NCBI GenBank assembly: GCA_029933365.1
Contig: JAOZOH010000146.1
Location: forward strand, 1-6,488
DNA length: 6,488 bases
Origin: Desulfuromusa sp.
GTDB taxonomy: Bacteria; Desulfobacterota; Desulfuromonadia; Desulfuromonadales; Geopsychrobacteraceae
Direction: 5' to 3'
In this document: positions 1 through 6,488 of the stretch, one piece after another
How the letters are laid out: each line of letters opens with the position of its first letter
Position numbering within the stretch: position 1 is the stretch's first letter
Program-made: the position numbers and the translations under genes
Notes under the pieces: generated by a model
The model's input: only the letters and a program-made list of their open reading frames with translations
Told to the model about the DNA's origin: nothing
The model's database searches: none

Positions 1-1007
1 TTTTTTCTTTTCCAATCCCGACCTATAACATCACCAAAGATCTGGACTGGGAGAGCGATCGACTTCGACCTGTCTGGGAGATGACGGCGAAATACGGTAT
101 CCCCTATTTCAGTAATTTTGTGAATTCCGATATGGATCCGGAAGATGCCCGCTCTATGTGTTGTCGGCTGCGCCTCGATAATCGTGAATTGCGCCGACGG
201 GGAGGTGGCTTGTTTGGCTCCAACCCGATGACCGGATCGATTGGCGTTGTTACCATCAATTTGCCACGGGCCGCCTATCTTGCCAATGATAAGGCCGATT
301 TTTTTGCCCGGATCAGCAAGTTGATGAAGCTGGCATTCCAGTCGCTGGAGATCAAGCGGAAGCAGCTGGAACGGTTTACTGCCGATGGTCTTTATCCCTA
401 CAGCAAGTTTTACCTGTCGGCCATCCGTGAGCGGAGTGGCAATTTCTGGGATAACCATTTTTCCACCATTGGTCTGATCGGTATGCATGAAGCCTGTCTC
501 AACCTGTTTGGTAGTGGCATAGAGAGCGAAGTCGGGCGGGCGCTTTCCCAAGAAACTCTTGAGTATATGCGCAAACAGCTTGAGGCTTTCCAGGAAGAGA
601 GTGGGCATCTTTATAATCTGGAGGCAACTCCGGCAGAGGGAACTAGCTTCCGTCTTGCCAATCGGGATCGACAGAGTTACCCCGATATTATCTGTGCCGG
701 GGAGGAAGAACCCTATTACACCAATTCGACCCAATTGCCGGTCGGGATAACTGAAGATATCTATGAGGCCTTGACTCATCAGGATGAGATGCAAACTCTT
801 TACACAGGTGGCACTGTTTTTCACGGATTTTTGGGTGAGCGGTTGGAAGATTGGCGCAGTGCACGGTTACTGGTCAAGCGGATTTCAGAAACCTTCCATT
901 TGCCCTATTTTACTCTAAGTCCAACTTTTACAATTTGCCCGGTGCATGGCTACATACCGGGCGAACATTTTTCCTGTCCCCACCATCAGGAGGGGCAGGC
1001 GGCGTAG
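1..1007 (+). CDS. nrdD: Anaerobic (class III) ribonucleoside-triphosphate reductase, catalytic part, 5'-truncated by window; lacks the glycyl-radical domain
   Basis: Reduces ribonucleoside triphosphates to deoxyribonucleotides by radical chemistry in anaerobic cytoplasm. The reading frame is open from base 3, so 334 C-terminal residues are visible and the start lies outside. Seen: PTYNIT near the left edge, a MCCRL finger-loop motif (Cys codons 159-164; one is the expected thiyl-radical cysteine), a GGGLFGSNPMTGSIG glycine-rich stretch, and a C-terminal metal-site region with CPVH (936-947) and CPHH (975-986). Family members normally continue from a CPxC motif straight into the radical domain (RVCGY/RVVGY). 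Here the protein ends ten residues after the last metal-site Cys with QEGQAA and a TAG stop. The missing domain is encoded separately at 1117-1263. First gene of an operon with that ORF and nrdG. Family assignment is very secure; that the split is functional is inferred. Confidence 0.95.
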   Translation, partial: FSFPIPTYNITKDLDWESDRLRPVWEMTAKYGIPYFSNFVNSDMDPEDARSMCCRLRLDNRELRRRGGGLFGSNPMTGSIGVVTINLPRAAYLANDKADFFARISKLMKLAFQSLEIKRKQLERFTADGLYPYSKFYLSAIRERSGNFWDNHFSTIGLIGMHEACLNLFGSGIESEVGRALSQETLEYMRKQLEAFQEESGHLYNLEATPAEGTSFRLANRDRQSYPDIICAGEEEPYYTNSTQLPVGITEDIYEALTHQDEMQTLYTGGTVFHGFLGERLEDWRSARLLVKRISETFHLPYFTLSPTFTICPVHGYIPGEHFSCPHHQEGQAA

Positions 1008-1021
1008 CTTATTGATTGATA

Positions 1022-1085
1022 ATCGGGGACTGAATTTATATTCTGTCTCCCGATTGTCCGGGGACAGACCAAGGGACAGTCCCCT
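1022..1085. repeat. REP-like palindromic repeat between the two nrdD parts
   Basis: This lies in the 109-bp gap between the nrdD stop and the glycyl-radical ORF. GGGGACT (1025-1031) pairs with AGTCCCC (1078-1084) as outer arms. Inside, CTGTCTCC (1043-1050) pairs with GGGGACAG (1060-1067) with one G-T wobble, and TGTCC/GGACA (1055-1066) forms an alternative small hairpin. The GGGGACAG/CTGTCCCC signature resembles short palindromes scattered between genes in Desulfuromonadales and mobilised in other bacteria by REP-associated tyrosine transposases; that identity is from memory. In mRNA it would fold between the two cistrons and could affect transcript stability or relative expression. Confidence 0.65.
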
Positions 1086-1104
1086 AGCACTCTAACTGAA
1101 AAGT

Positions 1105-1111
1105 GAGGAGG
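1105..1111 (+). promoter_or_regulatory. Strong Shine-Dalgarno site of the separate glycyl-radical ORF
   Basis: GAGGAGG ends five bases before the ATG at 1117. It is a near-perfect anti-Shine-Dalgarno match at good spacing, which argues that the small ORF is translated on its own and is not debris of a frameshifted nrdD. A similar AGGAGG occurs at 988-993 inside the end of the upstream gene. Confidence 0.85.
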
Positions 1112-1116
1112 TTGCG

Positions 1117-1263
1117 ATGGCAACAAAATGTGATGGTAAAACGGAAGTTTATTCACGTGTATGCGGTTTTTTTCGTCCGGTGCAACAATGGAATCGTGGC
1201 AAAAAAGAAGAGTTTAAAGAGCGTTCTGAGTATGTTGTTGCAACCAAGGAGCAGAAACACTGA
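1117..1263 (+). CDS. nrdD: Stand-alone glycyl-radical domain of anaerobic ribonucleotide reductase (48 aa)
   Basis: This small protein is the C-terminal domain of a class III reductase, carrying the glycyl radical that starts catalysis. Residues 10-22 read EVYSRVCGFFRPV, then QQWNRGKKEEF, the conserved end of NrdD proteins. Gly17 (codon 1165-1167) is the predicted radical site and Cys16 precedes it. Cys5 (1129-1131) in KCDGKTE matches by position the last cysteine of the NrdD metal site, so the break falls inside that site. The ATG has a GAGGAGG site five bases upstream. It lies in a different frame from the upstream nrdD fragment, with several stop codons between, so readthrough is excluded and a single frameshift would not join them. 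Its TGA overlaps the proposed nrdG start (CTGA). Inferred: it docks onto the upstream protein and is activated by NrdG. GrcA/YfiD, which replaces the damaged radical domain of pyruvate formate-lyase, is a precedent for a separate glycyl-radical subunit. Confidence 0.9.
   Translation: MATKCDGKTEVYSRVCGFFRPVQQWNRGKKEEFKERSEYVVATKEQKH
1246..1251 (+). promoter_or_regulatory. Shine-Dalgarno site that selects a CTG start for nrdG
   Basis: AAGGAG lies inside the last codons of the small radical-domain gene, eight bases before the CTG at 1260. The nrdG frame opens after a TGA at 1227-1229 and has no ATG, GTG or TTG until a TTG at 1299. That TTG would delete the conserved GFQGTS segment typical of NrdG N-termini. 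The site therefore supports initiation at CTG 1260. Confidence 0.7.
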
Positions 1264-1964
1264 AAACGATTCGGATCAAAGGTTTTCAGGGAACCAGTTT
1301 GCTCGATTTCCCCGGACGGGTTGCTTCGCTGGTATTTACCGGTAGTTGTAATTTGACCTGTCCTTTTTGCCACAATGCCGGGTTGGTTCTGGATCCTGAC
1401 AGTTATCCAGATTATCCTCTCGATGAGTTGCTGGCAGACCTGAAAAAGCGTGAGGGTTTTATCGATGGGGTTGTAATATCGGGCGGAGAACCGACCATCG
1501 ATACGGGTCTGCCGGCATTTTTATCGCTGTTGAAAGAGAGAGATCTGCAAGTCAAACTTGACAGTAATGGACTGGCACCAAAAGTTATTGCTGATCTGCT
1601 GGAGCAGCAACTGGTCGATTATTTTGCTATTGATATGAAAACCAGCCTCAATCGTTACAATGAGCTTCACACCATGCCGGTAGCAACAGAAGCTTTGCGT
1701 GAGACAGTGGAAATTCTCAAGCAAGCTACGGTGGAGGTTGAGTTTCGCACCACCTGTATCCCCCATCTGGTGGCAGAAACTGAGATCGATGCGATCGGAG
1801 AGTTGTTACAGGGAGCTCCGCTCTGGGCTTTACAGCAATTTGTTCCACTTCACGCGATGGTTGAAAAATGGCAGGAGCTTGATGTGTATCGACCGGAACA
1901 GCTTTATGCGCTAGCTGATTATGCTAGGGGATATGTTGATCAGGTTCAGGTGCGCGGGATCTAA
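1260..1964 (+). CDS. nrdG: Anaerobic ribonucleoside-triphosphate reductase activating protein (radical SAM activase)
   Basis: A radical SAM enzyme that uses a 4Fe-4S cluster and S-adenosylmethionine to abstract hydrogen from the reductase glycine and create the glycyl radical. With the CTG start the protein has 234 residues. Seen: GFQGTSLLDFPG at residues 8-19, the cluster motif CNLTCPFC (Cys30, Cys34, Cys37), and SGGEPT at 74-79, which binds SAM. The N-terminal motif and length fit the NrdG2-type activase. The start is chosen from conservation and the AAGGAG eight bases upstream; the next usual codon, TTG 1299, would give 221 residues and remove the conserved N-terminus. It overlaps the small radical-domain gene by two bases (CTGA), suggesting translational coupling, so the activase and its substrate domain would be made together. 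Function is secure; the CTG start is likely but unproven. Confidence 0.93.
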   Translation: MKTIRIKGFQGTSLLDFPGRVASLVFTGSCNLTCPFCHNAGLVLDPDSYPDYPLDELLADLKKREGFIDGVVISGGEPTIDTGLPAFLSLLKERDLQVKLDSNGLAPKVIADLLEQQLVDYFAIDMKTSLNRYNELHTMPVATEALRETVEILKQATVEVEFRTTCIPHLVAETEIDAIGELLQGAPLWALQQFVPLHAMVEKWQELDVYRPEQLYALADYARGYVDQVQVRGI

Positions 1965-1970
1965 TTAGCA

Positions 1971-1985
1971 TTCCGGGGACATGTA
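1971..1985. repeat. GGGGACA-type half-site downstream of nrdG
   Basis: CCGGGGACATG lies just after the nrdG stop and shares the CCGGGGACA core with the palindrome at 1059-1066. No complete second arm is visible, so it may be a truncated copy. With the first copy it brackets the radical-domain ORF and nrdG. Confidence 0.4.
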
Positions 1986-2020
1986 CTTGTTACGTGTTTG
2001 GAATACGATCCAGAGCAAAA

Positions 2021-2400
2021 TCAGGGTCGCGGGGTTGCGTCCCCGCCCGACGCCTTCATTTCATTGTGCGTTCAAAGAAACGAAGCAAAGAAAGACGCCC
2101 GAACTCCTTGCCCGCCACTGGCGGGTTCCCGGAAACGGATGACGGCTTATGCTGGGCGGCAAAAACTCGGCTAACGCCTCAAACATTTGCCGCCCTGATC
2201 GCAACGCCGCCATCCATTTCCGGCTGCGTCACACGGGGGGGAGTTCAAGAGCAAATACAGAAATTTCCTTTTTGCTTCCTTCGGTTTTTTTGAATCTCTG
2301 CGAGTTCTATTCCCCGCCCCCTTGGGGCGAAAGCTGGCTGAAGGCCAGCGAAGAGTCCGCGTAGTTAATACCCCGCTGCTTGTGGCAGGGTGCTTTACAT
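2021..2400. repeat. Hairpin-rich non-coding stretch, probable dispersed composite repeat
   Basis: The stretch holds no convincing gene: open frames here lack ribosome binding sites and protein-like composition. It contains a series of inverted repeats: GCGGGG/CCCCGC (2029-2046), CCCGCCA/TGGCGGG (2111-2125), GGGCGGCAAA/TTTGCCGCCC with a 22-base loop (2154-2195), CGCCCC/GGGGCG (2315-2329) and GCTGGC/GCCAGC (2333-2349). The middle part, from the CCCGCC hairpin to GGCTGCGTCACACGGG near 2222-2237, matches a pattern I remember as an intergenic repeat in many proteobacteria. The part near 2366-2390 resembles ATACCCCGC-type palindromes of Geobacter relatives. This recall cannot be verified here. It could be a non-autonomous mobile element, decayed mobile DNA, or a structured RNA. 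Confidence 0.5.
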
Positions 2401-2404
2401 ACAA

Positions 2405-2442
2405 AAAAAGCTCCGAACTTAAGGTTAAGTTCGGAGCTTTTT
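2405..2442. terminator. Strong bidirectional rho-independent terminator
   Basis: A perfect inverted repeat with 18-bp arms (2405-2422 and 2425-2442) separated by GG. The GC-rich core GCTCCGAACTTAA is flanked by an A-tract on the left and a T-tract on the right, so it gives a hairpin plus U-run on either strand. It lies between converging units: nrdG and its repeats on +, and the cytochrome gene on -, whose stop is 21 bp away. It should end both transcripts. Confidence 0.93.
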
Positions 2443-2463
2443 GTTGTTACGGGGTGAATGTCC

Positions 2464-2718
2464 TTAAAGTCTTATTTTGTGACAGAACAGGCAACGGAAT
2501 TTTGGCGGATGATCTTTCGAAAGAGGGATATCGTTTTCATTGTGACAATCTTCGCAGAATTTTTCGGCAGCTTTTTTCCCATCAGTTTTGACAATATTGT
2601 AAAATTTTTGGTGAATCTCATCTTTTGGTACCGGTTGGGTTGTTTCTTCTGGTGCCATCCAGAGAAAGATAAGAAGGGCTAAAGCTCCAAGTAGGAGCAG
2701 AATGTCACGTTTTTTCAT
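2464..2718 (-). CDS. Small membrane-anchored diheme c-type cytochrome (84 aa)
   Basis: Predicted electron carrier facing the periplasm. The start is the ATG at 2718, which has GGAG six bases upstream and gives MKKRD; an in-frame ATG 15 bases further upstream lacks such a site. Residues 6-22 form one hydrophobic helix, an uncleaved anchor or signal. Two heme-binding motifs follow: CEDCH (55-59) and CLFCH (76-80). His36 and His70 could be the distal ligands, giving two bis-His hemes, but this is inference. The region between reads KAAEKFC and DHPPKFRC, typical of small multiheme cytochromes in metal- or sulfur-reducing deltaproteobacteria. The gene lies 54 bp after the small membrane protein on the same strand and ends 21 bp before the strong terminator. 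The exact redox partner is unknown. No known cytochrome subfamily was recognised. Confidence 0.88.
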   Translation of the reverse strand: MKKRDILLLLGALALLIFLWMAPEETTQPVPKDEIHQKFYNIVKTDGKKAAEKFCEDCHNENDIPLSKDHPPKFRCLFCHKIRL

Positions 2719-2772
2719 AATGATCTCCAACAAACAGAGTTATAAAATATTGAATTTTTTAGACAGGATTCG

Positions 2773-3105
2773 TTATTCCGATTTGATAAAAACAAGGTAG
2801 ATAAACAAGGCCACAGCTACTGCCCCGCCGCCAACAAGGATCCAGAGGCCACCGCCGGCAATTCCTTCTACCCCGGTCCCCTTGCCGACAGCCAAAGAAA
2901 CTATCAGGGCAAAACCGCCCAGACCGACAAGAAACCCTGCTATTGCTTTCCAGCCAATAAAGTAGGTGATGAGTATGATGACAGCAAATCCTCCCAAAAA
3001 CCAAGGATTGCTATTCAAATCCCCGATGTTCCAGTCTTGCAACTGTTGCATGACTTGATCAGTGCGTAAGTAATCCATGTAATGTTTAATATCAGCCCAA
3101 CTCAT
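2773..3105 (-). CDS. Small membrane protein with three predicted helices, function unknown (110 aa)
   Basis: No family was recognised. Residues 1-34 are soluble and rich in D, Q and aromatic residues (MSWADIKHYMDYL). Hydrophobic segments follow at about 36-51, 54-73 and 83-107, with many glycines (the loop region GVEGIAGGG and later GGGA), ending in the charged tail KSE. The ATG at 3105 has GGGGAG five bases upstream, a strong site, so the start is reliable. Composition and site argue for a real gene. It is 54 bp upstream of the diheme cytochrome on the same strand with no terminator between, so the two are probably co-transcribed, and a membrane role linked to electron transfer is plausible. 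It contains no cysteines and no CxxCH, so it is not itself a c-type heme protein. Confidence 0.8.
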   Translation of the reverse strand: MSWADIKHYMDYLRTDQVMQQLQDWNIGDLNSNPWFLGGFAVIILITYFIGWKAIAGFLVGLGGFALIVSLAVGKGTGVEGIAGGGLWILVGGGAVAVALFIYLVFIKSE

Positions 3106-3212
3106 ATCGTCTCCCCATTGGATCTACTGAACGAGTGGATTCAGGTGTTTGCAGATAGCCGGAATAGTAGCAGATTGTGGGGTGAGGGGAAAGAGGTAAA
3201 AGCCCGTAAATC

Positions 3213-3241
3213 TTGACTTTATTATGGGTCTTAACTAGGAT
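3213..3241 (+). promoter_or_regulatory. Candidate sigma-70 promoter for murI
   Basis: TTGACT (3213-3218) and TAGGAT (3236-3241) are separated by 17 bases, matching consensus at 5 of 6 and 4 of 6 positions. Transcription would begin near 3248, giving a leader of about 60 bases before the GTG at 3307. It lies in the 201-bp gap between the divergent membrane-protein gene and murI. No equally good promoter was seen for the minus-strand gene. Confidence 0.55.
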
Positions 3242-3306
3242 GATTCCCTTGGTTTTGCGGTTAGATTAACAGTGTGTTTTGTTATCATTACATAACGGGA
3301 GTTTCT

Positions 3307-4101
3307 GTGCAGCATCGGGCAATTGGTATATTTGACTCTGGAGTCGGTGGTTTGACGGTTTTTAAAGAGATTGCCCATTTGCTGCCGGGTGAAAATCTGA
3401 TTTACCTCGGTGACACGGCTCGGGTTCCTTATGGAACCAAAAGTGTCACTACAGTTCGGCGCTATGCTTTGGAGGCTGCAGAGTTTCTGGTCGACCAAGG
3501 GGTAAAGTTATTGGTTGTTGCATGTAATACTGCATCAGCGGTTGCCTTGCCCGCTTTGCGGGAGCGTTTTCAGCTGCCGGTGATCGGGGTGATAGAACCG
3601 GGCGCGCGGCGTGCCGCAGAAAGTCAAAATCGACGGGTCGGGGTTATCGGTACCGAAGGAACGATCAATAGTGATCGCTATCCTGAGGCCATTCATGCTT
3701 TGTTACCCGATGCGCAAATCACCTCTGTTGCCTGTCCACTATTTGTTCCATTGGCTGAAGAGGGCTGGGCAGAGCATGAAATAGCCAGATTAACTGCCTT
3801 GGAATATCTACAACCGTTGTTAGCTGCGAAGATTGATACTTTGGTTCTCGGTTGCACCCATTATCCATTATTGCGAAATACTTTACAGAAAGTTCTTGGC
3901 ACTGGCGTAACTATGGTAGATTCAGCGGAAGAAACAGCAAAATCGGTCCAACAGCTGTTTCGTCAGCAAGGGCTGACGAAACCGGAACATGGTGGGAGTA
4001 GGGATTTTTTTGTGACTGATGTGCCGACTCGCTTTGAACATGTCGGGCAGGCATTTCTGGGAGCTGACTTGGGGAAAGTTGAGCAGGTACAGATAGGTTA
4101 A
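3307..4101 (+). CDS. murI: Glutamate racemase
   Basis: Converts L-glutamate to D-glutamate in the cytoplasm for peptidoglycan stem peptides, without cofactor, using two cysteines as acid/base. The chosen start is GTG 3307, with GGGAG five bases upstream; it gives 264 residues, normal for the family, and begins MQHRAIGIFDSGVGGLT. A GTG further upstream (3274) would add eleven unconserved residues. Seen: Asp10 in FDSGVGG, GDTARVPYG at 35-43, catalytic Cys73 in ACNTAS, and catalytic Cys183 with His185 in GCTHYPLL. All key residues are present, so the enzyme should be active. The GerMN-domain gene follows after 10 bp, so the two are likely one operon driven by the promoter near 3213. Confidence 0.96.
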   Translation: MQHRAIGIFDSGVGGLTVFKEIAHLLPGENLIYLGDTARVPYGTKSVTTVRRYALEAAEFLVDQGVKLLVVACNTASAVALPALRERFQLPVIGVIEPGARRAAESQNRRVGVIGTEGTINSDRYPEAIHALLPDAQITSVACPLFVPLAEEGWAEHEIARLTALEYLQPLLAAKIDTLVLGCTHYPLLRNTLQKVLGTGVTMVDSAEETAKSVQQLFRQQGLTKPEHGGSRDFFVTDVPTRFEHVGQAFLGADLGKVEQVQIG

Positions 4102-4111
4102 AGAGGATAAA

Positions 4112-4693
4112 ATGAAAAAGCCATTGTTGGGTCTGCTTGGGTTGATCGTTGTTGGAGTTCTTGTCGGATATGGAGTCGGTTGGTATTTTCAACAGTCGCA
4201 GGATGTTGGGGAGGAAGTCCGGGTTGTGATTGCAGATCAACTGCCGGATCGAGAGATCCAACTCTACTTTGCTGATCCCTCGGGGTCTTTTCTGGTTGCA
4301 GAAGCTTATGAAATTCCTGGTTGCGATGATGATCAAGATTGTATCCTGAGCTTGTTGAATGGACTGATTAATGGCTCTCAGCAAGGGAATTTTCCTGTCT
4401 TGCCGAAAGAAACAAAAGTTCTTGATCTAGAAGTGGAAAATGATCTGGCTCGGGTGAATTTTTCCAAGCAGCTGGCTGATTTACACCCTGGAGGCAGCTT
4501 GGCGGAATTACTATCGATTTACAGCTTGGCCAACAGTTTGAATGAAAATTTTCCGTATGTCCGACAGTTGCAGATACTGATTGAGGGAGAAGTGCGTCAG
4601 ACTTTAAAAGGGCATGCCCGTATCGATCAGCCAATATATGCCAATTTTAACTTCAGTAAACCGCCATTGTCTGGAGCTATCCCTGAAAAGTAA
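4112..4693 (+). CDS. Membrane-anchored GerMN-domain protein (193 aa)
   Basis: Residues 4-27 form a glycine/valine-rich hydrophobic helix after MKK, which should anchor the protein in the inner membrane with the rest outside the cytoplasm. There is no lipobox cysteine. From about 47 to 175 the sequence fits the GerMN domain, first described in the spore protein GerM but also found in non-sporulating bacteria: QLYFAD, then ILSLLNGLINGSQQGNF, LPKETKVLDLEVENDLARVNFS, and IYSLANSLNENFPYVRQLQILIEG. Cys71 and Cys77 in GCDDDQDC could form a disulfide outside the cytoplasm. AAGAGG five bases before the ATG is the ribosome site. It is 10 bp after murI, so a cell-envelope or peptidoglycan role is plausible, but the biochemical function of this domain in such bacteria is not established. 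Domain call is good; role is inferred. Confidence 0.85.
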   Translation: MKKPLLGLLGLIVVGVLVGYGVGWYFQQSQDVGEEVRVVIADQLPDREIQLYFADPSGSFLVAEAYEIPGCDDDQDCILSLLNGLINGSQQGNFPVLPKETKVLDLEVENDLARVNFSKQLADLHPGGSLAELLSIYSLANSLNENFPYVRQLQILIEGEVRQTLKGHARIDQPIYANFNFSKPPLSGAIPEK

Positions 4694-4732
4694 GAGACCA
4701 ATGTTGATATTCAAGTATTAAGCATCAAGCAG

Positions 4733-4753
4733 ATTGCCCCGATGGGCAATTTT
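4733..4753 (+). terminator. Probable rho-independent terminator after the murI operon
   Basis: ATTGCCC (4733-4739), loop CGAT, GGGCAAT (4744-4750), then a run of four T. The stem is short but perfect and lies 40 bp after the GerMN gene stop, so it probably ends or attenuates the murI transcript. Confidence 0.6.
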
Positions 4754-4786
4754 CAGGAAGATAACGGGGGAATTTTGGGATGGTCG

Positions 4787-4816
4787 TTGCGTTATTCTAA
4801 CCCGATACGGTATACG
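4787..4816 (+). promoter_or_regulatory. Candidate promoter for the 170-residue protein
   Basis: TTGCGT (4787-4792) and TATACG (4811-4816) are 18 bases apart, each matching consensus at 4 of 6 positions. It lies between the preceding hairpin and the gene at 4842, giving a leader of about 20 bases. Plausible but not strong. Confidence 0.4.
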
Positions 4817-4841
4817 TTAACTTTCTATTTGAGGAACTGCC

Positions 4842-5354
4842 ATGATTGTTGGGTTTAACCACAATGTGACTTATCGGAGTGTCAATTTTCATGTCCAGAC
4901 CGAGGACAGTGGGCTGAAGAGCCCCCATCTGGTGACCCTGCTCTATCATGGTGGTATTATCATTTCGTCACAAAAAACCAGCTACGCTGATATTATCAAA
5001 GTTGATAACCTCGACCATGTGATTGAGGAATTGGCAAAAGAGCAGCATAAAGGGATGTTGCGGAAGTTAACGCAGGGGGAGTTTGATGAGCGGATTGTAG
5101 AACTCGGAATTCCACTGGGTGCTTCCGCTGGGCGGTCAGACCAGCAGACGGCAGTAACCCAGCCAGCTCCGGGTCAGCCGGAAACGGAAGCGTCACCAGC
5201 AGAAACTCCTCCAACCAGTATTCCCACCCCGGAACCGGTAACCATTGTTGAGGAGCCGATTGTCGATAAATTTAATCAGCCAAAAGTTTCCAACGAGCCC
5301 AGTCTTGATGATTTAATTTATGACTACCTGACGGCAGGGCCGCTGCAGCAATAA
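4842..5354 (+). CDS. Conserved deltaproteobacterial protein of unknown function with proline-rich linker (170 aa)
   Basis: No function is known to me. Residues 1-88 form a compact domain: GFNHNVTYRS, then FHVQTEDSGLKSPHLVTLLYHGG, KTSYADII, and EEQ/KEQHKGMLRKL. I recall similar short proteins (NHN, HVQTEDSG, KTSYAD, EQHK motifs) in Geobacter and Myxococcus relatives; that is memory, not a search. Residues about 95-140 are rich in P, T, E and Q and probably disordered. A conserved-looking tail, SLDDLIYDYL (153-162), may be a short docking helix. There is no signal peptide or membrane helix, so it should be cytoplasmic. GAGGA six bases before the ATG supports the start. It appears to be a single-gene unit between the hairpin at 4733 and a weak terminator at 5395. 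A modular adaptor or regulator (folded head, flexible linker, terminal motif) is one possibility only. Confidence 0.8.
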   Translation: MIVGFNHNVTYRSVNFHVQTEDSGLKSPHLVTLLYHGGIIISSQKTSYADIIKVDNLDHVIEELAKEQHKGMLRKLTQGEFDERIVELGIPLGASAGRSDQQTAVTQPAPGQPETEASPAETPPTSIPTPEPVTIVEEPIVDKFNQPKVSNEPSLDDLIYDYLTAGPLQQ

Positions 5355-5394
5355 ATGCTTCGCTAAAAAATGTGACCGGGTGAAAATTGTTACC

Positions 5395-5422
5395 ATAATC
5401 AACCGACCATGATTATCTTTTT
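5395..5422 (+). terminator. Weak terminator between converging genes
   Basis: ATAATCA (5395-5401) pairs with TGATTAT (5410-5416) around an 8-base loop, followed by CTTTTT. The stem is AT-rich, so termination may be partial. The T-tract overlaps the stop codon of the opposing DedA gene. Confidence 0.45.
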
Positions 5423-6041
5423 AGTCGTCCTCTAGTTGACGGAGCTTACGATTTTTTCTGAAGAAAATATATCCAATGAGCAAGACAAGACAGAGGAATC
5501 CCACACCAATCATGATTTGGTGCAGATATTGTCCAATGAGTTCTTGATTATTACCGATCAGATACCCGGTCAGAGCCAGAATAACGACCCAGATTCCAGC
5601 GCCTAAAGCAGTGAAGATAATAAAAATGGGGAGATTCATCCGTGCCAGTCCAGCAGGTAGACTGATGTATTGCCGGATACCGGGCAACAGTCGTCCGATA
5701 AAGGTTGAAATATGTCCGTGCCGGGCAAAAAAATCTTCTGATTTTGCCAATGCCGCCGGAGTGAGCAGGACATAACGACCATAGCGTTCAAACAGTGGGC
5801 GTCCCCATTTGACCGCTAACCAATAATTGAAACCAGCTCCGAGGACGCTGCCAGAAATGCCTGCGACAATCACCAGGCTCAGAGACATCTCCCCCTGCGA
5901 GGCCAGATAACCGGCTGGTGGAATGACCACTTCGCTGGGAAAGGGGAAAAAAGATGATTCGAGAAACATCAGCACAATAATTCCGGGGTAACCCCAGAGA
6001 CTGACCGTGTCGACAATCCAGGTGATAATCTGATGAAACAT
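5421..6041 (-). CDS. DedA-family inner membrane protein (206 aa)
   Basis: DedA proteins are inner membrane proteins; members of the wider family act in undecaprenyl-phosphate or phospholipid translocation and membrane homeostasis. The start is the ATG at 6041 (MFHQI), which has AGGA five bases upstream and matches the usual length near 200 residues; an ATG 87 bases upstream would add a poorly hydrophobic, unconserved extension. Seen: [22 protein letters not shown] at 26-47 split by the acidic residues Glu28 and Glu37, [13 protein letters not shown] at 64-76, FFARHG at 104-109, and GRLLPGIR with YISLPAG at 116-131 containing the conserved Arg117 and Arg123. Later hydrophobic helices lie near 137-160 and 170-193, followed by a basic tail FRKNRKLRQ. 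All hallmark charged residues are present. The gene appears monocistronic; no clear promoter was found. The exact substrate cannot be told from sequence. Confidence 0.92.
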
Positions 6042-6367
6042 ATCAATCCTTTTTCTAAATGTGCCTGTCTTCGAGCGGTTGGTCTGTAAAATAATAGCCA
6101 CACTGACCATTGCAGGTTGCCACGTCAATATTACCTCAAAACTTACTTCTCAAAATATTTTTTCTTCTGGTAGCTTCTGCCTTTACAATCATAGCATCCT
6201 CTTTGATAGGTAGGCTTCACATAGCTTTCCTTCCCCCCCCCATCAGTTTTTCCGCCTAATGTTTTATGGCGATCAAACGAAAACTAAGCGCTCAATCTTA
6301 AGTCACCCTTCAAGGGTTTCGGGAGTCATAGATCAATAGCCTTGAAAAGTCTTGTTTCTAGCAATAA
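6042..6367. other. Mostly non-coding gap upstream of the DedA gene
   Basis: This 326-bp stretch separates the DedA gene from the partial gene at the right edge, both on the minus strand. It holds a run of nine C (6233-6241), a short palindrome ACCCTT-C-AAGGGT (6305-6317) and one very small doubtful ORF. No tRNA, strong terminator or clear promoter was recognised. The DedA promoter should be here, but only an isolated minus-strand TTGACG near 6122-6127 was seen, without a well-placed -10 box. Confidence 0.5.
6143..6220 (-). CDS. Doubtful very small ORF with a CxxC motif (25 aa)
   Basis: Starting at GTG 6220 with AAGGA seven bases upstream, the frame encodes a basic, tyrosine-rich peptide containing CYDC (residues 9-12), rich in K and Y at its end, before TAA. 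The frame stays open upstream through the nine-C tract without an ATG. At this size chance is a serious alternative. It ends 101 bp before the DedA start. Confidence 0.18.
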
Positions 6368-6488
6368 CTATCCGTCCTGTGTGGAGAGAAAATTCAGAGT
6401 AGAATGAATTGTGAACAAGGGGAAGAGTAGTGCCATAAAAAGGATATTAATAACCGGGACCATACTGATCAGGGCAGGGAATATCCCC
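6368..6488 (-). CDS. C-terminal end of a hydrophobic membrane protein, truncated by the window
   Basis: Read on the minus strand from the right edge, only one frame is open; it gives 39 residues ending in TAG at 6370-6368. The sequence is strongly hydrophobic (PALISMVPVINILFMALL, then FPLFTIHSTLNFL) with a short polar tail STQDG, consistent with one or two helices at the end of a membrane protein. The PVINILF..P...STL pattern faintly recalls the end of EI24/CysZ-type proteins, but this is too short to name a family. The other two frames hit stops quickly. Confidence 0.5.
   Translation of the reverse strand, partial: GIFPALISMVPVINILFMALLFPLFTIHSTLNFLSTQDG

Follow-up and report, generated by a model that had tools for sequence, protein, structure and literature searches.

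The window analysed here is a stretch of 6488 nucleotides from Desulfuromusa sp. (assembly GCA_029933365.1, contig JAOZOH010000146.1, positions 1 to 6,488). It opens within a gene for NrdD, the catalytic protein of class III (anaerobic) ribonucleotide reductase (RNR), which is generally described as a single chain with its glycyl-radical domain built in. The C-terminal part of the catalytic chain (334 amino acids) occupies positions 3..1007 of the plus strand; its 5' end lies outside the window, and it ends in ...ICPVHGYIPGEHFSCPHHQEGQAA, within the zinc ribbon. After an intergenic stretch of 109 nt (1008..1116, plus strand), a small open reading frame (ORF) of 48 amino acids follows in another frame (1117..1263, plus strand), its ATG preceded closely by a Shine–Dalgarno-like GAGGAGG site (1105..1111, plus strand). 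The small ORF carries a zinc-ribbon cysteine (Cys5) and the RVCGF glycyl-radical segment, with the expected radical glycine of RVCG at position 17 (Gly17), followed by FFRPVQQWNRGKKEEF. This is the arrangement reported in the first-pass annotation, made from the letters of the window, and its coordinates are correct. The gene for the radical S-adenosylmethionine activase, nrdG2 (1260..1964, plus strand), begins approximately at the stop of the small ORF. Its start is uncertain (TTG at 1299 or upstream), and its frame scores 175.5 bits against TIGR02495, for which the cut-off is 131.15.

The catalytic frame matches positions 200–526 of the 562 positions of the Pfam family PF13597 (E = 1.3e-100) and the small ORF matches positions 526–562 (E = 5.4e-10), which makes the two collinear and directly adjacent. 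With NCBIfam NF006126 the matches cover positions 325–648 and 645–682 of 684, respectively. The features of class III enzymes are thus distributed unusually: the barrel is recognized by both PF13597 and NCBIfam and an activase gene lies directly downstream, but the RVxG segment is on the separate 48-residue ORF, and no chain encoded in the window unites barrel and radical domain. With E values up to 1, PF13597 was the only Pfam family matched by the small ORF, and no pyruvate formate-lyase-type domain was found. A sequence search of the PDB with the small ORF gave one weak, unrelated match only, and a plasmid collection gave no match.

A protein search with the small ORF yielded 289 short homologues. 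This search admits proteins of about 26–84 amino acids and gives no gene context, so some of them may be contig-edge fragments. As the first-pass annotation had expected, such short proteins are already annotated, for example under the name 'anaerobic ribonucleoside-triphosphate reductase', in the source databases, which also place short copies, by name and with their context unseen, in Spirochaetota. A genome scan gave 205 confirmed matches, of which the best 80 loci were kept for analysis. A catalytic nrdD lies upstream at 77 of these 80 loci, and in each of these cases the radical domain has an ORF of its own. The continuous nrdD frame named beforehand as a possible refutation does not occur among these relatives. 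The complete catalytic frames of the relatives have about 660–730 codons. At one locus (L059) a run of 100 N separates catalytic nrdD and small ORF, and the end of its large chain is not readable for that reason. The three loci lacking an upstream catalytic gene are L036, at a contig end, and the close relatives L003 and L008.

The small ORFs bear marks of translation. A Shine–Dalgarno-like motif was found 5' of all 80 scored starts (the window plus 79 loci; L008 was missed by the motif pattern and dropped), as against 128 of 800 random positions (16%). An nrdG match lies downstream at 78 of the 80 relatives, starting within 100 nt at 74 of them. In an alignment of 39 rows (the window and 38 of the 289 homologues), 19 residues are invariant. 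The median ratio of non-synonymous to synonymous substitution rates (dN/dS) between the small ORF of the window and those of its relatives is 0.033, a value obtained with 11 of 79 comparisons unsaturated at synonymous sites; by this measure, purifying selection on the small ORF is strong. Given this ratio and the 289 short homologues, the split is not due to chance. The locus thus consists of two separate, conserved ORFs with marks of translation, collinear with one-chain NrdD and in a conserved gene order.

These data bear directly on the possibility of a broken gene, either an assembly error or a pseudogene of this strain, with an intact nrdD elsewhere. For the strain itself the evidence comes from one window, and real decay of the operon is seen in near relatives: upstream of position 4001 in L003 and L008 the catalytic nrdD is gone (L003 retains a decayed tail), and the nrdG matches are spread over two frames. 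Against a broken gene stand the same split at 77 of 77 loci with a catalytic part, the start and ribosome site of the small ORF itself, its dN/dS of about 0.03 and the content of the host genomes. For 43 of the 80 loci, the host genome (completeness not given) was searched for other nrdD genes and for reductases of the class I/II type (PF02867). One of these genomes (G087) yielded a further full-length nrdD without a break and the other 42 yielded none, so the further objection of an intact nrdD elsewhere does not hold for the relatives either; G065 has an extra partial match. Gene breakage is accordingly a very improbable explanation. In the order of Desulfuromusa kysingii, PF13597 was matched in 120 of 136 genomes; among the matches listed, a frame that spans essentially all of PF13597 without a break is confined to G158 and G125 (contig 2). 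G125 has a split copy besides the unbroken one, which corresponds to a plasmid-borne protein named for Geoalkalibacter subterraneus.

It is similarly improbable that the two ORFs yield a single polypeptide by programmed frameshifting, readthrough, bypassing or an intron. They are in the same frame at 28 of the 77 loci. However, the gap between them varies from 11 to 290 nt (median 54), and all three relative frames occur (0, 1 and 2 at 28, 13 and 36 loci), which excludes frameshifting or readthrough as a general route. The small ORF has its own ribosome site at all 80 scored starts, the two ORFs overlap in another split form (T3, below), and Rfam gave no match in the window. Pseudogene or assembly error, frameshift or readthrough, and intron were rejected on these grounds. 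The gap of the window contains a palindrome-like GGGGAC...GTCCCC stretch at about 1025–1085; a repeat search of positions 900–1300 with default settings reported nothing. L001, with a gap of 106 nt, has a similar stretch, which is absent in the near relatives L004, L005, L006 and L009 with gaps of 34–39 nt.

According to the part of PMC9531940 available to us, a zinc finger motif is present in the radical domains of class III enzymes. The sequence in one-chain relatives is C..HGY....CP.CG...EVYSRV.G or nearly so. The large chain of the window type (T1) stops beyond the second cysteine, mostly with CPH and a variable tail; the next cysteine is the invariant Cys5 of the small chain, whose spacing to the EV of EVYSRV is unchanged. 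We infer that the zinc is bound by ligands from both chains. The locus probably encodes a functional two-subunit class III RNR with a separate radical subunit, a reading already advanced in the first-pass annotation, strongly supported by the relatives and given a probability of about 0.88, on comparative evidence and not on the structure model described below. The large chain would comprise the ATP cone and the barrel together with the beginning of the zinc ribbon, whose last cysteine would come, with the glycyl-radical loop, from the 48-residue chain translated from its own start site. This small chain would dock in the barrel at the place taken by the C-terminal domain of one-chain NrdD, NrdG2 would set the radical on Gly17, and this radical would then start catalysis at the barrel cysteine. 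Assembly of the chains, the shared zinc site and radical transfer are inferred, and it is less certain that the small chain is exchangeable, be it after oxygen damage or for a phage-encoded copy.

Several observations weigh against a two-subunit enzyme. An AlphaFold2 model of the same-frame locus L068, read through its single stop, has a mean predicted local distance difference test score (pLDDT) of 80 and a predicted template modelling score of 0.77. Residues 658–697, however, have a pLDDT below 50; they include the artificial linker and the first half of the small chain with Cys5 and the radical glycine, and the position of the radical loop is thus not given by the model. The catalytic chain of G057 itself has matches in two different frames. 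In L003 and L008 the small ORF is intact despite the loss of the catalytic gene from an operon in decay; it can thus outlive its partner. Finally, a PF02867 reductase is also present in 41 of the 43 host genomes, and the split enzyme need not be essential; by the same count it is not the sole RNR of most of its hosts. Within the modelled small chain, a pLDDT of about 70 is reached by the C-terminal helix alone. The modelled barrel and this helix align with the one-chain NrdD structures of Prevotella copri (P. copri) and Thermotoga maritima (T. maritima), which fits the predicted docking and is no test of it.

The first-pass annotation had described the split at one locus. It does recur in the relatives, and it proved wider than suggested, with five split forms in the phylum and stand-alone copies in phages. 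In a draw of 297 genomes of the phylum, at least 188 have a PF13597 match and at least 23 catalytic matches end at positions 526–535 in an unbroken frame. A separate radical ORF lies downstream in all 14 of those 23 that were fetched; one-chain NrdD is common in the same draw. Besides T1 there are four further forms, most of which break at other points. In T2 (L128–L135, L139, L163) CPLCDEEL or a similar sequence is retained on the large chain, and (P)CEVWTRVMGYHRPV lies on the small chain. In T3 (L154, L155, L157) the ORFs overlap, and close to the break each chain has a charged, helical-looking tail that may serve in pairing. The small chain of T4 (L158–L162, L164) is typically VPxEVYSRVVGYFRPVQNWNKGKQQEF. 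In T5 (L152, L153, L156, L165) NrdD ends with CPRCGR and about 25 further residues, and the small chain contains RRITGYLVGTLDRFNNAKRAEE. At the T2 locus L129 (3009–4685, genome G319), two radical-domain ORFs follow one catalytic nrdD, with a secreted-protein-like gene between them.

A tree of 57 rows was established by a quick method with the radical domain left out. T1, T3, T4 and T5 each form one clade, T5 on a very long branch, and T2 is mixed with two one-chain forms (L136 and L138) that lie inside its clade. Fused and split states change seven times on this tree, at least five of the changes being forced by starred branches; the count cannot tell splits from re-fusions, and several splits are favoured because the break points differ. 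L078, a split locus that is not among these rows, lay outside the clade of the other T1 rows in an earlier tree, on a long branch at an open fork. P0249 and P0312 in the earlier tree, as well as L167, L175 and L183, are one-chain.

The NrdD radical domain was also found in 46 viral contigs (L081–L126). A PF13597 search over the whole records found the terminal domain only in 44 of them; two of these 44 records (L096 and L125) stop at the contig edge immediately upstream of the domain and may therefore derive from a one-chain gene, and other records may be fragments too. Of the remaining two contigs, L108 is one-chain and L095 (G015) has a separate catalytic match in a permuted order: the small subunit comes first, an nrdG-like gene second and the catalytic nrdD match, interrupted by two stops, last. 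The radical domains of L082 and L083 are cut short by a stop. Of 44 viral starts scored (L108 included), 31 have a Shine–Dalgarno-like motif upstream, a smaller share than at the host loci. Over the core codons the median dN/dS is 0.17 (356 pairs, 86.5% below 0.3; the pairs are not independent and include 11 host-genome copies), whereas the same codons read one base off give 2.06 (1004 pairs); on these ratios the core codons are judged to be under purifying selection. PHROGs yielded no family for the stand-alone domain, its weak matches being mainly to full-length phage NrdD. The phage record MT835493 was rejected as a stand-alone copy, its sequence being that of a one-chain NrdD. In the archaeal virus ANMV-1 (KP703175; L127, 3677–4111), a 144-amino-acid protein annotated as nrdD has a zinc-ribbon-like N-terminal part, no barrel, and ends in the radical domain.

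Six marker proteins, five from the surroundings of the copy in L094 and one from L100, were used to characterize the viral contigs. At least one of them occurs in 26 of the 46 (L094 and L100 counted) as against two of the 80 nrdD loci. PHROGs names two of the six as Mu-type functions, a transposition protein and a Gam-like protein; one or the other is present in 12 of the 46 (L094 counted), and at least 12 of the contigs look Mu-like.

Copies away from nrdD also occur in host genomes. We fetched 11 such regions (L140–L150), all from the same order, from the matches listed; at another place in each of the 11 genomes, a catalytic match adjoins a small ORF. Phage-like genes adjoin ten of the 11 copies, at least one marker protein is found at eight, and the transposition or Gam-like protein at five. 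L140 is near a phage primase, a neck protein and a pyrophosphatase, and L141 near an integrase and phage tail or structural genes. L146 shares all five of the L094 markers at 100% identity, and split nrdD loci are present in its genome (G108). Such phages thus live in hosts with a separate radical subunit, and supply of that subunit by the phage is therefore a direct hypothesis. More broadly, the radical domain may be a mobile, interchangeable subunit, split off repeatedly by bacteria, and phages, some of them Mu-like, may carry this piece of roughly 45–50 residues alone and employ it to activate, renew or take over host NrdD for phage DNA synthesis; we regard the chances of this as a little short of even. 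The eleventh copy (L142, 6226–6384), a second stand-alone domain in genome G168, is surrounded by ordinary chromosomal genes and adjoins a CobT/VWA gene and sigma-54 regulators; no phage family was found among the five neighbours searched. It is a candidate chromosomal spare part. The copy of G168 is identical to P0071, a protein named for Syntrophotalea acetylenica.

A related proposal is that the small protein is a part replaceable after cleavage by oxygen, like GrcA/YfiD, and that the split is an adaptation to oxygen exposure. Cutting at the glycyl radical would affect the 48-residue chain alone, and extra copies do exist, in L142 and as two copies at L129. Spare parts for other glycyl-radical enzymes are suggested by Andorfer et al. 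2021 in the accessible portion of the paper (PMC8683613). On the other hand, regulation, stoichiometry or neutral fission fit the split equally, and the second copy at L129 could be a simple duplication. We consider repair a tentative explanation of the split, somewhat less probable than its failure.

Elsewhere in the window, a small ORF on the minus strand (2464–2733) has a hydrophobic leader and two CxxCH haem-type motifs (CEDCH and CLFCH) and appears cytochrome-like by eye. An ORF of the Asp/Glu racemase family (PF01177) lies at 3274–4101, and on this account the window resembles ordinary bacterial DNA.

The predicted two-subunit RNR can be compared with several known systems. It shares with one-chain NrdD/NrdG (T4, T. 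maritima, P. copri; PF13597, TIGR02487) the catalytic chain, the order of zinc-ribbon and radical motifs, the adjacent activase and, as modelled, the fold of the large chain. It differs in that the radical domain is a separate gene product and, in the window, in a break inside the zinc ribbon. Catalytic chains divided over two polypeptides are in print for class II NrdJa/NrdJb and the class I alpha subunit of phage Aeh1 (PMC3267527; for split class I/II also PMC9669993; both as far as their accessible text goes). Those belong to other RNR classes than the enzyme described here. Neither of these splits is known to free a radical-carrying domain. GrcA/YfiD and T4 Y06I, which serve pyruvate formate-lyase, are likewise small stand-alone glycyl-radical domain proteins, found also in phage (PMC8683613, accessible portion). 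GrcA, however, is additional to an intact pyruvate formate-lyase, whereas in these relatives the small ORF would supply the domain missing from the nrdD itself and has homology to PF13597 only, not to the radical domain of pyruvate formate-lyase. Neither a split class III RNR nor a stand-alone NrdD radical domain was found in the accessible text of the literature searched, mostly open-access (including PMC9531940, PMC9669993, PMC8683613, PMC4372165, PMC4493059, PMC4009431, PMC4390871, PMC2795772, PMC3019208 and PMC3267527).

A recurrent two-chain form would offer a natural way to add, remove and swap the radical in vitro. According to the accessible portion of PMC8683613, validation of glycyl-radical spare parts is limited to pyruvate formate-lyase, and a role for them with other enzymes is speculation. 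Whether spare-part repair reaches beyond pyruvate formate-lyase, a question in print there for glycyl-radical enzymes generally, would become directly testable with the two-chain form. The phage copies, if they act as proposed, would be auxiliary metabolic genes of minimal size that provide spare parts for a ribonucleotide reductase, and would tie phage replication to the anaerobic nucleotide metabolism of the host.
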